From contig NZ_CP016379.1 in assembly GCF_003991135.1 (NCBI RefSeq), positions 682,001 to 746,000 of the forward strand: a DNA stretch of 64,000 nucleotides, in the 5' to 3' direction. Below, in pieces: positions 18,573-24,102 of the stretch (the stretch's first letter is position 1; each line of letters starts with the position of its first letter). Source of the DNA: Anoxybacter fermentans (GTDB taxonomy: Bacteria; Bacillota; Halanaerobiia; DY22613). The position numbers were made by a program, and so were the translations under genes. The notes beneath the pieces are model-generated. The model worked only from the letters and a program-made list of their open reading frames with translations, ran no database searches and was not told the DNA's origin.

Positions 18573-18589
18573 AGATAGATAATAATCAG

Positions 18590-18633
18590 GAAGGTCCTTT
18601 ATCTCTTTTTTTAAGATAAAGGACCTTCTTTAT
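18590..18633 (+). terminator. Terminator of the decarboxylase operon
   Basis: AAGGTCCTTTATCT pairs with AGATAAAGGACCTT, followed by CTTTATTGTTT. Confidence 0.85.
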
Positions 18634-18668
18634 TGTTTAGACAAAAGTGCCTTACTGGTACGAAAAAA

Positions 18669-19068
18669 GAGGTCCACAGTGATCTATGCTTCGGTTATTG
18701 AAGAGTTTAAGAAACCCACAGCAATCTTTCGACTTACCTTGGATCCGTTTTGACCCTACAATAACCTTAGCTCGATGATGATCGATTATAGAAGACAATC
18801 AAATAAGGTTGAATTCACCCAGAATTTATTATGATCTTTCGACCATAATAAATCCCTGCTTGATCGATCATCATCTTAGGTCGACCCATATCGATTCTTG
18901 ACGACCCCATCAGTATCTTCCGACACTGATAAAGCCCTGGGAACCGATACAGATCAGCCCTTTGGCCCATATGAACCTAGAAATGAGTTCATATGAACCG
19001 CCGGTCGACTGATACGGAACTATTTAATACGATCCCGTATCAGTCTGCTCTCGACCACTGTGAACCTC
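18669..19068 (+). ncRNA. Candidate 400-nt structured non-coding RNA, class not recognised
   Basis: No ORF crosses this stretch, yet it holds many perfect complementary pairs. The outer stem GAGGTCCACAGTG (18669-18681) pairs with CACTGTGAACCTC (19056-19068) with one mismatch. Inside, GATGATGATCGAT (18774-18786) pairs with 18863-18875; ATTTATTATG (18824-18833) with 18844-18853; ATCAGT (18909-18914) with 18925-18930; CATATGAAC (18968-18976) with 18987-18995; and GACTGATACGG (19007-19017) with 19035-19045. The loop motif ATCTTTCGAC or ATCTTCCGAC occurs three times (18724, 18834, 18915). Strand is a guess: pairing works either way, but the plus strand follows the operon terminator. Large RNAs of this kind (OLE, ROOL, GOLLD) exist; I could not match any of them. 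Confidence 0.7.
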
Positions 19069-19350
19069 ACGTTTATTATAGTGTCCAGAAAGAGAAAATT
19101 TATACATGAAAAAAGTTTTTTATATATTGATTAACTTCTGGGGCATCCTGATTTCAGAAGAACGAAGAATAGCGATCTTGGAATTGAAATTGAAAACTAT
19201 TAATTCAGCAAGGATTTAATATTAAGGTGGTCTATAAAAATTTTAACCTTAGTGAACCTGATATAAATACATATTTCCGAAAAAGTTATAAAAATAGGTG
19301 AGGTTGTTAACAAACCCTTCTTTTTTAGAGACTTGCCCGTGCACTGCCGG
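19069..19350. other. Non-coding stretch downstream of the RNA candidate
   Basis: AT-rich, no recognisable gene. Includes the 3' flank of the RNA candidate; I see no clear terminator or promoter. Confidence 0.4.
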
Positions 19351-19443
19351 AAAAACTAAATATAATTTCTGAAGCGTATAAGTCAAGGCTTAAAGCCAAG
19401 ATGGCGGAGCGTCCAGTAGCGGAAGAAATTATATTTAGTTTTT
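19351..19443. repeat. 20-bp perfect inverted repeat around a 53-nt loop
   Basis: AAAAACTAAATATAATTTC at 19351-19369 is mirrored exactly at 19425-19443 (20 bp in all). The loop contains a second small hairpin (GGCTT/AAGCC). Only one copy is seen in the window. It may be a MITE-like remnant or an RNA hairpin; no flanking target duplication is visible. Confidence 0.6.
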
Positions 19444-19589
19444 CTATTCCTCTGTGGGAACAAGTTATGTGCACTTCCCCTTTTTCAACAGCCTGGGTGG
19501 TAGTTCCTTTTTTTATTTGATGTTGAAGGAAATTCATTATTAATGATGGAATTGATTATTATTAGGTTTAAAGATAAGGAGTGAGAAAA

Positions 19590-20411
19590 ATGGAACAGAG
19601 ATATAAAGAGATAGGAGTAACGGTACTGGGTTGGTGGATATTTTTTAGCAGTTATTTGGTGTTGGCTCTGGTAACTATTACAGTGGTTCAAAAATTTAAA
19701 ATTGGTTTAGACTGGCGTCTAGCTTTTCCTATCTTTATTAAATGGGAAATAATACTGGGAGTATTGGCATTGATTATAGCAGTTGTTATGCATATTTATA
19801 AGTTTTATCTTAAACGGTTTATACTGTTAAAGGGGTTTATAAGGACTTTCTTACTTTATTTTATCAGTTATCTGTTGACAATAGTAGTTGTGCCTTATCT
19901 TTTGGCTTTGCTACCGTTGGCCCGGGTGATGGTCGATGAGATTGAGTCCCACCTTTCTTTTATAATGATTATTCTTGTCATTTTTCGAATTTTCCCACAG
20001 CGAAATTATAATGATCCTAAAGGACCAAAATTTAAATTACCGTTGACCAACATTAAAAAGAATGATATTAAACCGTTTGGAATTTTTCATCCCGGGATAG
20101 ATTTTGTAAAAGAGTGGGGTACTCCTGTTTATGCAGCCGGTAATGGAAAAGTGGTCACTGCCTGGCCTTATAAAATTTATGGAAATATGGTTAAGATTGA
20201 ACATCAAAATGGTTTTAGCACTGTATATGGTCATTTAAATAAAATTTGTGTTCAGTATGGTCAGATAGTTAAAGAGGGTGATCTGATTGGCTATGTAGGT
20301 AATACCGGGCATTCATTTGAACCCCATCTTCATTTTGAAGTTAGATATAAAAATCGAGTAGTTGATCCGGAAAAATATCTTAAAGGAGCTAATTGGAAAA
20401 AAAAGAATTAA
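19590..20411 (+). CDS. Membrane-anchored M23 family metallopeptidase
   Basis: 273 aa from ATG 19590, nine bases after AAGGAG; the in-frame GTG at 19581 touches that site. Three to four transmembrane helices occupy residues about 10-125, then a LytM/M23 domain: HPGID (zinc His and Asp, residues about 163-167), GNMVKIEHQNGFSTVYGHL and HLHFE with the catalytic and zinc histidines. The domain should face outside and cut peptidoglycan cross-links. A terminator follows. Confidence 0.9.
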   Translation: MEQRYKEIGVTVLGWWIFFSSYLVLALVTITVVQKFKIGLDWRLAFPIFIKWEIILGVLALIIAVVMHIYKFYLKRFILLKGFIRTFLLYFISYLLTIVVVPYLLALLPLARVMVDEIESHLSFIMIILVIFRIFPQRNYNDPKGPKFKLPLTNIKKNDIKPFGIFHPGIDFVKEWGTPVYAAGNGKVVTAWPYKIYGNMVKIEHQNGFSTVYGHLNKICVQYGQIVKEGDLIGYVGNTGHSFEPHLHFEVRYKNRVVDPEKYLKGANWKKKN

Positions 20412-20811: not shown

Positions 20812-21126
20812 ATGAGATTAGAAAAACATCCGATACTTGAATTTAAAAGGGGGAAAAAAGTGACATTTACCTTTAATGGACAGGAAGTAGAAGGCTATGA
20901 GGGAGAGACAATAGCTGCTGCTCTCCATGCCGCTGGTATCCGAAAATTAAGTGAAAGCCAGAAACTTCATCGGCCGCGGGGTTTATTCTGTGCCATCGGG
21001 AACTGCTCTTCCTGTCTAATGAAGGTAGATGGTATTCCCAATGTTAAAATTTGTATAACCAAGGTTAGGGAAGGAATGAGAGTAGAAGAGCAGAAAGGGA
21101 AAGGTGATCTAAGTGAAAACTACTGA
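20812..21126 (+). CDS. 2Fe-2S subunit of an FAD dehydrogenase complex (HcnA / PDH-type)
   Basis: 104 aa. The plant-type ferredoxin Cys pattern is CAIGNCSSC (residues about 64-72) with a further Cys in VKICITK, in the order found in HcnA and in the N-terminal part of sarcosine oxidase alpha. It carries electrons from the flavin subunits. First gene of a tightly packed five-gene operon (overlaps of 3-20 bases), so the products surely form one complex. Confidence 0.85.
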   Translation: MRLEKHPILEFKRGKKVTFTFNGQEVEGYEGETIAAALHAAGIRKLSESQKLHRPRGLFCAIGNCSSCLMKVDGIPNVKICITKVREGMRVEEQKGKGDLSENY

Positions 21127-22195
21127 GATTTTAGTAATTGGTGGTGGACCGGCAGGCCTGTCAGCAGCAATTAGTGCTGGCTCAAGAGGAGCAAAAGTTA
21201 TCCTTTTGGAACGGGATGATTTTCTTGGTGGTCAGTTGATTAAACAGACTCATCGTTTCTTTGGTTCAAAACGCGAACATGCAGGAACCAGGGGTTTTAA
21301 GATTGCTGAAGATTTGAAAGATAGAATTAAAAAATTGCATAATGTTGAGGTAATGGTCTCTGCTAGGGCTCTGGGTTTTTATGAAGATGGGGTAGTAACC
21401 GTTTTGAAAGATGAAAAGATGCATAAGATTAAAGCAGAGAAAGTAATTGTGGCTACAGGAGCTCATGAAAAGTTTCTTCCTTTTATTAATAATGATTTGC
21501 CTGGAATTTATGGTGCAGGTGCCGTACAGACTCTTATGAATGTATATGGAATTGTACCAGCTCAACGGATCTTAATGGTTGGTGCAGGAAATATCGGACT
21601 TATAGTTTCTTATCAATTAATGCAGGCAGGTGTAGAAGTAGCTGCTATTATTGAAGCTGCTCCCCGAATTGGTGGATATCTGGTACATGCTTCTAAAGTA
21701 CGCCGTATGGGTGTTCCTATTTTAACCAGACATACTATAAAGGCAGCCTATGGGACAAATAGGGTTGAAAAGGCTGTGATATGCCAATTGGATGATAAAT
21801 GGCAACATATTCCGGGTACGGAACAGGAATTAGAAGTGGATACTATCTGTCTAGCGGTAGGATTGAGTCCATTAACTGAGATTCTCTGGCAGGCTGAGTG
21901 TGAGATGATTTTTGTACCAGAATTGGGTGGACATGTACCTTTACGGGATGAAAACTTAGAGACATCAGTTCCTGGTATATATGTAGCAGGAGATTGTGCA
22001 GGTGTGGAAGAAGCAACAGCCGCCATGTTGGAAGGTGAATTAGCCGGCTTAAGTGCAGCTTATAGTCTGGGTTACGGAGAAGCCGATTTTAAAGAAAGAC
22101 GTGAACAGATTGTTACTAATCTACAGAACTTACGTAGCGGGCCTGTAGGTGATAAGATTAGAGCTGGGCTGGCTAAAGTAAGGAGGGGTGCATGA
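21113..22195 (+). CDS. FAD/NAD(P)-binding alpha-type subunit of the dehydrogenase complex
   Basis: 360 aa, GTG start overlapping the upstream gene by 14 bases. A Rossmann dinucleotide site sits at the N-terminus (LVIGGGPAGLSAAISAGSRG) and a second in the middle (RILMVGAGNIGLIVSYQ), with the C-terminal VPGIYVAGDCAGVEEAT flavin motif. This is the HcnB / proline dehydrogenase alpha / sarcosine oxidase alpha architecture, which passes electrons between FAD, Fe-S centres and an acceptor. Confidence 0.88.
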   Translation: MKTTEILVIGGGPAGLSAAISAGSRGAKVILLERDDFLGGQLIKQTHRFFGSKREHAGTRGFKIAEDLKDRIKKLHNVEVMVSARALGFYEDGVVTVLKDEKMHKIKAEKVIVATGAHEKFLPFINNDLPGIYGAGAVQTLMNVYGIVPAQRILMVGAGNIGLIVSYQLMQAGVEVAAIIEAAPRIGGYLVHASKVRRMGVPILTRHTIKAAYGTNRVEKAVICQLDDKWQHIPGTEQELEVDTICLAVGLSPLTEILWQAECEMIFVPELGGHVPLRDENLETSVPGIYVAGDCAGVEEATAAMLEGELAGLSAAYSLGYGEADFKERREQIVTNLQNLRSGPVGDKIRAGLAKVRRGA

Positions 22196-22689
22196 TGTTA
22201 GAATCTACCGGAGTACCCACTGTGGAAGATTTGAAAGCCAGGATGCCGTCAAAAGAACGCCTGGCCCGGGGCCCGGTGGCAATGATTGAATGTTTCCAGA
22301 GGATTCCCTGTGATCCATGTTACCATAGCTGTAAACGTGGAGCTATTAGCAAATTGATAGATATAAATGATATTCCTCAGGTTGATTATGAGAAATGTAA
22401 TGGTTGTGGGCTCTGTATTAGTAACTGTCCGGGACTTGCTATATTTGTTCTGGATCAAAATTATGATGAAAAGTATGGACTTATAAAAATGCCTTATGAA
22501 TTATTGCCACGTCCTGAGATTGGTGAAGAAGTGGTTGCTTTAAACCGGGAAGGTCAGGAGGTATGTAAGGGTAAAGTAGTGGAAGTACGGGATGGAAAGA
22601 TTCAAGACAAAACAGCCATTATTGGTGTTGCAGTCCCCAAAAAATTTTTGATGGAGGTTCGCAATATCAAAGTGGGGAGGTCTAAATGA
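22192..22689 (+). CDS. 4Fe-4S ferredoxin subunit of the dehydrogenase complex
   Basis: 165 aa, overlapping the previous stop (ATGATG), with AGGAGGGG upstream. Residues about 35-85 carry two sets of Cys: CDPCYHSC and CNGCGLCISNCP. The first set is shortened relative to standard ferredoxins. The C-terminal 70 residues form a small beta domain (VCKGKVVEVRDG). It is likely an electron-transfer subunit with no counterpart in the classic HcnABC set, like the delta-type chain of archaeal proline dehydrogenase. Confidence 0.85.
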   Translation: MMLESTGVPTVEDLKARMPSKERLARGPVAMIECFQRIPCDPCYHSCKRGAISKLIDINDIPQVDYEKCNGCGLCISNCPGLAIFVLDQNYDEKYGLIKMPYELLPRPEIGEEVVALNREGQEVCKGKVVEVRDGKIQDKTAIIGVAVPKKFLMEVRNIKVGRSK

Positions 22690-22967
22690 TGGAAAATGGT
22701 AAAATTATTGTTTGTAGATGTGAAGATGTTACCCTTGCAGAGATCCGACAATTGATTGAGGAAGGCTTTACTTCTTTAGATGAGATAAAAAGAATTGCAC
22801 GATGCGGAATGGGTCCATGTCAGGGTAAAACTTGCAGTCAGATAATTGCCCGTGAAATAGCCGCCGCTACAGGAAAGTCCCTGGAAGAGATACAGATTCC
22901 AACCAATAGACCTCCCATAGGAGGAATTAAACTGGGTGAGTTGGTAGGTGAAGAAAATGAAGAATAA
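22686..22967 (+). CDS. BFD-like 2Fe-2S subunit of the dehydrogenase complex
   Basis: 93 aa. The bacterioferritin-associated-ferredoxin-like domain has Cys ligands in VCRCEDV (residues 9-13) and ARCGMGPCQGKTC (residues about 39-51). In related enzymes this domain is the C-terminal part of HcnB or sarcosine oxidase alpha; here it is a free subunit. GGGAGG sits eight bases before the ATG. Confidence 0.87.
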   Translation: MMENGKIIVCRCEDVTLAEIRQLIEEGFTSLDEIKRIARCGMGPCQGKTCSQIIAREIAAATGKSLEEIQIPTNRPPIGGIKLGELVGEENEE

Positions 22968-24102
22968 AGCATCTGTTGTAGTTATTGGGGGAGGCGTTGT
23001 TGGTTGTTCTATTGCATATAATCTTGCCAGGTTGGGTGTGAAAGATGTTGTAGTAGTAGAAAAAAATTTTCTCGCATCTGGTTCAACAGGTCGTTGTGGT
23101 GCCGGGGTACGTCAACAGTGGGGTACTGAGATGAATTGCCGATTGGCAAAGGAAAGTATGAAGATTTTTGAAAACATGAATGAAATTCTCAAGACTAAAC
23201 GGGATATTGAACTGAAACAGGAAGGTTATCTTCTTTTAGCTTATTCTGAACGGGAGATGGATCAATTTAAGAAAAATATTGAACTTCAGAACAGTCTGGG
23301 CATTCCATCCCATTTAGTAACTCCCGAAGAGGCCAAAGAGATTGTACCATATCTAAATACAGAGAATCTGATAGGTGGAGCTTTCTGTCCAACTGATGGG
23401 CATGCCAATCCTTTTTTAGTCACCCAGGCCTATGCTGATGCAGCACGGTATTTAGGTGTGGAATTTTATCTCCGTACTGAAGTTACCGGCATCAGACAGG
23501 AAAAAGGCCGAATCGTTGGAGTAGAGACAAATCGGGGATTTATAGCTACTGAGAAAGTGGTAAATACAGCAGGAGGATATTCTCAAGTTATTGGCAAGAT
23601 GGTTGGTTTGGATTTGCCGGTTTATTCAGAAAGACATCAAATTCTGGTAACTGAACCTGTTGAAAAGATGCAGGGACCGATGGTTATGTCTTTTTCTTAT
23701 AATATTTATTGTCAGCAGAATCCTCATGGTAGTTTCATTATGGGTTTTGGTGATCCAAATGAACCACGGGATTTCAATATCCGCTCTAGTTGGCAATTTT
23801 TAGAAGAGATGGCCCGTAAGGTAACCTGGCTTTTACCGCCTTTAAAACATTTACGAGTTGTTCGACAATGGGCCGGGCTTTATAATGTTACACCCGATCG
23901 TCAACCAATTCTATGTGAAACACCTCAAGTTCCTGGCTTTTATTTAGCTATCGGTTTTAGCGGTCATGGTTTTATGATTGCACCAATGGTGGGAATTCTC
24001 ATGGCAGAGATGATTACAGGTCAAAAGTTAAGTATGGATTTAGAACTGGATTTAGGTCGTTTTGAACGCGGTGAGCTAATCCTTGAGCCATCTGTGGTAT
24101 AA
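22957..24102 (+). CDS. FAD-dependent substrate-oxidising (beta) subunit, probable L-proline dehydrogenase
   Basis: 381 aa from the ATG at 22957, which has AGGTGA upstream. DAO-family fold: N-terminal VVVIGGGVVGCSIAYNLAR FAD site, ASGSTGRCGAGVRQQWG, and the C-terminal VTPDRQPILCETPQVPGFYLA plus GFSGHGFMIAPMVG segment. It corresponds to PDH1 beta, sarcosine oxidase beta or HcnC. Proline as the substrate is inferred from the pruA gene 314 bp downstream; glycine, sarcosine or hydroxyproline cannot be excluded from sequence. Confidence 0.85.
   Translation: MKNKASVVVIGGGVVGCSIAYNLARLGVKDVVVVEKNFLASGSTGRCGAGVRQQWGTEMNCRLAKESMKIFENMNEILKTKRDIELKQEGYLLLAYSEREMDQFKKNIELQNSLGIPSHLVTPEEAKEIVPYLNTENLIGGAFCPTDGHANPFLVTQAYADAARYLGVEFYLRTEVTGIRQEKGRIVGVETNRGFIATEKVVNTAGGYSQVIGKMVGLDLPVYSERHQILVTEPVEKMQGPMVMSFSYNIYCQQNPHGSFIMGFGDPNEPRDFNIRSSWQFLEEMARKVTWLLPPLKHLRVVRQWAGLYNVTPDRQPILCETPQVPGFYLAIGFSGHGFMIAPMVGILMAEMITGQKLSMDLELDLGRFERGELILEPSVV

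Follow-up and report, generated by a model that had tools for sequence, protein, structure and literature searches.

Anoxybacter fermentans (NZ_CP016379.1) encodes, on the minus strand of an intergenic block at positions 18669-19068 of the window, a new class of large structured RNA in which nine diverged tandem units pair into nine equal helices. By the window we mean the whole 64,000-nt stretch of DNA that was analysed, to which all positions refer unless otherwise stated. The best overall reading of the evidence, with a probability of roughly 0.8, is that of a stand-alone, trans-acting large structured RNA which is made in the forespore and serves as a modular scaffold. The scaffold function is inferred only and, even with the rest granted, has somewhat less than an even chance, no partner protein or multimer having been shown.

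Nested inverted repeats are seen in the block, and it contains no open reading frame of at least 60 aa. A preliminary description of the DNA had suggested a possible new large structured RNA of about 400 nt, with a series of internal stems and no open reading frame to explain it; this stands, supported by the lack of a match in Rfam 15, many homologues and massive covariation. The strand had been misread as plus. The minus strand folds far better, with a predicted energy of -191.0 kcal/mol against -120.2 +/- 5.9 in dinucleotide shuffles (z = -12.0), the plus strand reaching -136.1 (z = -7.3). The RNA is thus encoded on the minus strand; the plus strand was rejected for its weaker fold and because the G·U pairs would read A·C there. 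The gene measures about 406-410 nt, with TTTTTT lying immediately 3′ of the closing helix P1. The features are as follows.

19101..19105, minus strand: -35-like element GTATA, 14 nt upstream of the -10 element
19077..19086, minus strand: sigma-F-like -10 element GGACACTATA (family consensus GGnnAnAATA)
18663..19068, minus strand: RNA gene, first base at the closing helix (~19068), placed by fold, homologue alignment, promoter spacing and U enrichment
~18668-18663, minus strand: U tract at the 3′ end of the RNA gene, placed by U enrichment in 91 homologues
19053-19068 (5′ strand) and 18669-18684 (3′ strand), minus strand: P1, closing helix of 16 bp, from fold and alignment
19007..19045, minus strand: P2, hairpin (19030-19045 paired with 19007-19022)
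18964..18999, minus strand: P3, hairpin (18985-18999 paired with 18964-18978)
18883..18955, minus strand: P4 (18941-18955 paired with 18883-18897), from the fold, capped outward by P4a
18918-18921, minus strand: GGAA tetraloop of P4a
18774..18875, minus strand: P5 (18861-18875 paired with 18774-18788), from the fold, enclosing P5a and a variable segment
18841-18853 with 18824-18836, minus strand: P5a, GAAA loop at 18837-18840
18693..18766, minus strand: P6 (18752-18766 paired with 18693-18707), with P6a the best conserved part
18731-18746 with 18712-18726, minus strand: P6a, GAAA loop at 18727-18730
18581..18637: inverted repeat of 24 bp that separates the RNA from the oxaloacetate decarboxylase operon converging on it and probably terminates transcription from both sides

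The closing stem noticed earlier is therefore present, though 16 bp long (19068-19053 with 18684-18669) rather than 13 bp. The motif ATCTTYCGAC that had been reported from the loops is also real, but it is the antisense of GUC-GRAA-GAU, that is, of the GNRA tetraloops capping P4a, P5a and P6a. The nine-unit repeat architecture, the promoter and the tie to sporulation described below go beyond the preliminary description.

BLASTN against related genomes returned partial matches, the strongest at the 3′ quarter, and extension outward from these yielded 12 full-length homologues with the same layout. RNAalifold predicts 142 pairs for this set, with 96.6% of cells paired. Changes on both sides were found at 73 of these pairs, against 35.2 +/- 3.5 in shuffled controls and 12-22 in slid controls, and the covariation score was 0.474 (shuffled 0.252, slid no more than 0.119). 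The homologue search and covariation analysis suggested earlier thus gave relatives and a signal far above both controls, which is the general criterion for a structured non-coding RNA.

A total of 91 full-length RNAs was extracted from the genomes searched, 82 of which differ by more than 5% and form a non-redundant set with a median pairwise identity of 52%. The homologues are 348-451 nt long (median 398), and most keep all nine arms. At the 140 consensus pairs of the larger set 96.9% of cells are paired (slid controls, 30-44%), with changes on both sides at 122. The strand of P1 was located by complementarity in these sequences, so that its pairing there is partly by construction; P1 is backed by the independently placed promoter just upstream and by the 12-sequence set. 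P2-P5 were absent from the search models, and their conservation is accordingly independent evidence. When mutual information was calculated without a given structure, 71 of the top 80 column pairs fell inside the proposed one. No pseudoknot or tertiary covariation emerged from this analysis, whose other strong signals were all extensions of known helices or repeat-equivalent positions, and we therefore claim no tertiary contact.

G·U accounts for 24.0% of pair cells and A·C for only 0.7%, an imbalance which indicates that the constraint acts on RNA, and on the minus strand. This also disposes of a structure at the level of DNA, such as a cruciform or a cluster of terminators. Strong intergenic inverted repeats are what such a structure would present, but the G·U pairs exist on one strand only, being A·C on the other, and they occupy conserved positions; the explanation is refuted and keeps next to no probability.

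Each of the nine units is about 43 nt long and has the form GGAUCU-N5-GGUC / GAGCAAA / GAUC-N7-GGUUC / ~5 nt, as read from the homologue sequences; their arms form helices of 15-16 bp. Where two units pair, the first gives its right arm and the second its left: 1 with 2 (P2), 2 with 3 (P3), 3 with 5 (P4), 5 with 7 (P5), 7 with 9 (P6) and 9 with 1 (P1). Units 4, 6 and 8 pair with themselves as P4a, P5a and P6a, under short caps that are mostly GNRA. Six helices, P1-P6, meet at a central junction, and beyond an internal loop P4, P5 and P6 each continue outward as a second helix. The arms are separable modules, as two homologues (L042:4742-5100 and L095:5257-5604) have lost or shortened arms, with a short P2 or fewer units.

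Counted from the inner end, G·U pairs are conserved at positions 3, 12 and 14 of all nine helices. Their mean frequency over the nine helices is 0.75, 0.87 and 0.75 at these positions and 0.01-0.26 elsewhere, and none of 20000 permutations in which positions were shuffled within helices reached this pattern. The pairs next to them vary freely, from which it follows that the wobbles are selected as wobbles. The copy in the window is a diverged member, with standard pairs at positions 12 and 14 of its P1. Positions 3 and 14 lie one A-form helical turn apart, and by analogy with the known behaviour of G·U pairs we infer that the pattern may serve recognition of the groove by RNA or protein. We know of no RNA in which nine equal helices share one wobble code.

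These dimensions bear on a different possibility, that the nine short helices act as a decoy or store sequestering a double-strand RNA-binding protein, such as RNase III or one that binds RNA in the spore. Each helix, at 15-16 bp, offers roughly the footprint of one double-strand RNA-binding domain, wobble sites 3 and 14 are a helical turn apart, and the helices are interrupted by internal loops and junctions. A decoy, however, needs no fixed number or order of helices, yet most homologues keep nine arms within the narrow length range given above, and no partner is known. We regard this role as unlikely.

The junction segments, such as GAGCAAAG, are conserved in the 82-homologue alignment. This would fit a large base-pairing or regulatory RNA similar to raiA/ModT, acting through unpaired segments on mRNAs or on a second messenger while the spore develops, and sporulation RNAs with such roles exist in ModT (PMC11706538) and the forespore sRNA Bvs196 (PMC9147052). 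The molecule is nevertheless almost wholly helical and offers scant free sequence for pairing with targets, and we hold a regulatory role of this type to be unlikely.

Two covariance models were used to follow the RNA through the phylum. The first (R1), limited to the 3′ quarter with P6, P6a and the second strand of P1, matched 10 of 59 genomes of the class and 139 of 398 genomes of the phylum. The second (R2), built from 41 diverse sequences and applied with Bacilli genomes outside the search, matched 11 of the 59 and 172 of the 398, in 120 of 267 genera; the carriers comprise well over a hundred species of spore formers. An exact-pattern scan matched Halanaerobiales MAGs, Candidatus Frackibacter WG13 (two copies) and Fuchsiella alkaliacetigena (two copies), and because the pattern was strict it reached only the Halanaerobiales branch.

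The copy number is usually one, with two or three copies at different places in some genomes. In the A. fermentans genome a single full copy is accompanied by a short decayed one at about 801.5 kb of the contig (801484-801587), which is internally deleted so that only P1 and P6a are left. Dispersed copies, including this decayed one, might point to a mobile or selfish element, such as a MITE-like repeat, a TnpB/IscB guide RNA or an intron. Such an origin is contradicted on several counts and is largely refuted, to the point of being very improbable: no protein family, be it TnpB, IscB or a reverse transcriptase, recurs beside the RNA across lineages at the 91 loci, the RNA is usually single copy with its position kept within families, compensatory evolution extends over most pairs, and the gene has its own promoter and U tract. 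The searches that we ran detected no copies in phages, plasmids or viral contigs, and there was no Rfam match to introns or HEARO.

Clustering of the neighbouring proteins at the 91 loci revealed no recurrent family across lineages, synteny being confined to families. The absence of a conserved neighbour gene argues for a stand-alone RNA and leads us strongly to infer action in trans. Within the window, a gene for a membrane-anchored M23-type peptidase lies upstream of the RNA on the opposite strand (19581-20411); its resemblance to sporulation peptidases rests only on a reading of the translation. An FAD-dependent oxidoreductase operon (20812-24102) also adjoins the RNA in seven genomes of other families, possibly as old synteny. 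Also upstream, at 19350-19444, 53 nt separate the arms of a perfect 21-bp inverted repeat, which has a weak, sub-threshold Rfam match to lactis-plasmid RNA and the appearance of a hairpin RNA or of a scar left by a small mobile element. Further away, 35394-58245 contains two types of CRISPR repeat (Rfam CRISPR-DR2 on the plus and CRISPR-DR7 on the minus strand) in many short interleaved arrays across about 23 kb.

The promoter in the window, GTATA-N14-GGACACTATA (19105-19077), scores 20.3 bits with the family matrix. Upstream of the RNA, the -10 motif GGnnAnnnTA is present at 80 of 91 loci, against 9.6 in shuffles, and usually ends 5-8 nt ahead of the closing helix; an element G(A/C/T)AT(A/G) lies 14-15 nt upstream of it. 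The strict two-box pattern occurs at 45 of the 91 loci (0.24 in shuffles). Promoters of the sigma-A/sigma-70 type were also considered and were rejected, being found at 1 of 91 loci, not above shuffles. The motif was compared with the B. subtilis sigma F consensus. The sigma F promoters described in PMC3789822 have a conserved G on the upstream side of the -10 element. When 20 carrier genomes were examined with the family matrix, strong sites also lay ahead of gpr, a forespore gene, in 7 of them, with about one expected. At the other end, the 3′ terminus of the 91 homologues is U rich, with 6.6 T of 12 against 3.1 in the flanks. A sigma F or sigma G promoter, as for RNAs of the CsfG/Bvs196 type, is thus indicated by sequence evidence only; forespore transcription is strongly inferred from it, in the absence of transcript data.

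The distribution agrees with the promoter in that the RNA is restricted to spore formers. In the class, sigG is present in 27 genomes and absent from 32, and all 11 carriers belong to the former group (Fisher p = 5e-5). Across the phylum gpr, the spore protease gene, is present in 169 of 172 carriers and the remaining three have sigG, and 60 of the 63 genomes without gpr also lack the RNA (Fisher p = 2e-13). These p-values are not corrected for shared ancestry, which inflates them. About half of the sampled spore formers have no detectable copy, and the RNA is consequently not essential for sporulation in general.

We can only propose how a forespore-made scaffold might work. Transcription, directed in the forespore by sigma F and possibly by sigma G as well, would start at the first base of the closing helix, and the transcript would end in the U tract past that helix. 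It would then fold into its nine equal 15-16 bp helices from the nine diverged ~43-nt units, all presenting one wobble pattern to a partner, and these helices may pack side by side, either among themselves or with those of other copies. Alternatively, each helix might bind one copy of the same double-strand RNA-binding protein. Either way, the forespore is predicted to contain a stable particle, of RNA alone or as an RNP. A wider conjecture, which we advance tentatively and with less than even confidence, is that this hitherto unknown RNA class is ancient in endospore formers other than Bacilli and, made under sigma F in the forespore, self-assembles from its nine G·U-coded helices, which would be interchangeable, into a particle of RNA or RNP that the spore carries with it.

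An RNA of some 400 nt that ~43% of the genomes sampled from a phylum carry, that shows compensatory change at close to 90% of its pairs and that Rfam lacks is a rare find; to our knowledge, few bacterial RNA classes of such size and spread exist. The RNA shows a route by which large RNAs can evolve, through tandem duplication of a hairpin and re-pairing of the arms. The spore programme has, as far as we know, been studied almost solely via proteins; the forespore-type promoter of this RNA and its confinement to spore formers suggest that the programme has an RNA component too.

As a kind, large structured bacterial RNAs are already known, and the class was compared with them. Rfam 15 (4227 families), scanned at the gathering threshold, gave no match at the RNA in the window, the cmscan outcome on which the claim of novelty had been made to depend, nor in 16 homologous loci; permissive scans returned only chance-like sub-threshold matches, for example to a miRNA model. 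The models for OLE, ROOL, GOLLD, raiA, HEARO, introns, RNase P, tmRNA and 6S did not reach the gathering threshold. Nothing matching was found in the open-access literature on large, sporulation or Halanaerobiales structured RNAs or in two genome-scale discovery papers.

OLE, ROOL and GOLLD are likewise bacterial RNAs of large size and ornate, multi-branched form whose structure is strongly constrained, and by cryo-EM they are homo-oligomers (PMC12286853). They differ from the nine-helix RNA in having no match to it in sequence or structure, and nothing in their descriptions recalls tandem units that form nine equal helices with a G·U code. Phages or prophages encode GOLLD (PMC12286853), whereas the RNA described here is chromosomal and tied to sporulation. 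The raiA motif, or ModT, is a conserved structured non-coding RNA of Bacillota that affects spore formation (PMC11706538); its architecture is different, there is no Rfam match between the two, and ModT is very abundant in exponential growth, unlike an RNA with a forespore-type promoter. CsfG and Bvs196 are sRNAs that Bacillus transcribes in the forespore with sigma F and/or sigma G; Bvs196 has 294 nt and was traced within Bacillus only (PMC9147052). The nine-helix RNA resembles them in standing alone and, by inference, in being transcribed in the forespore.
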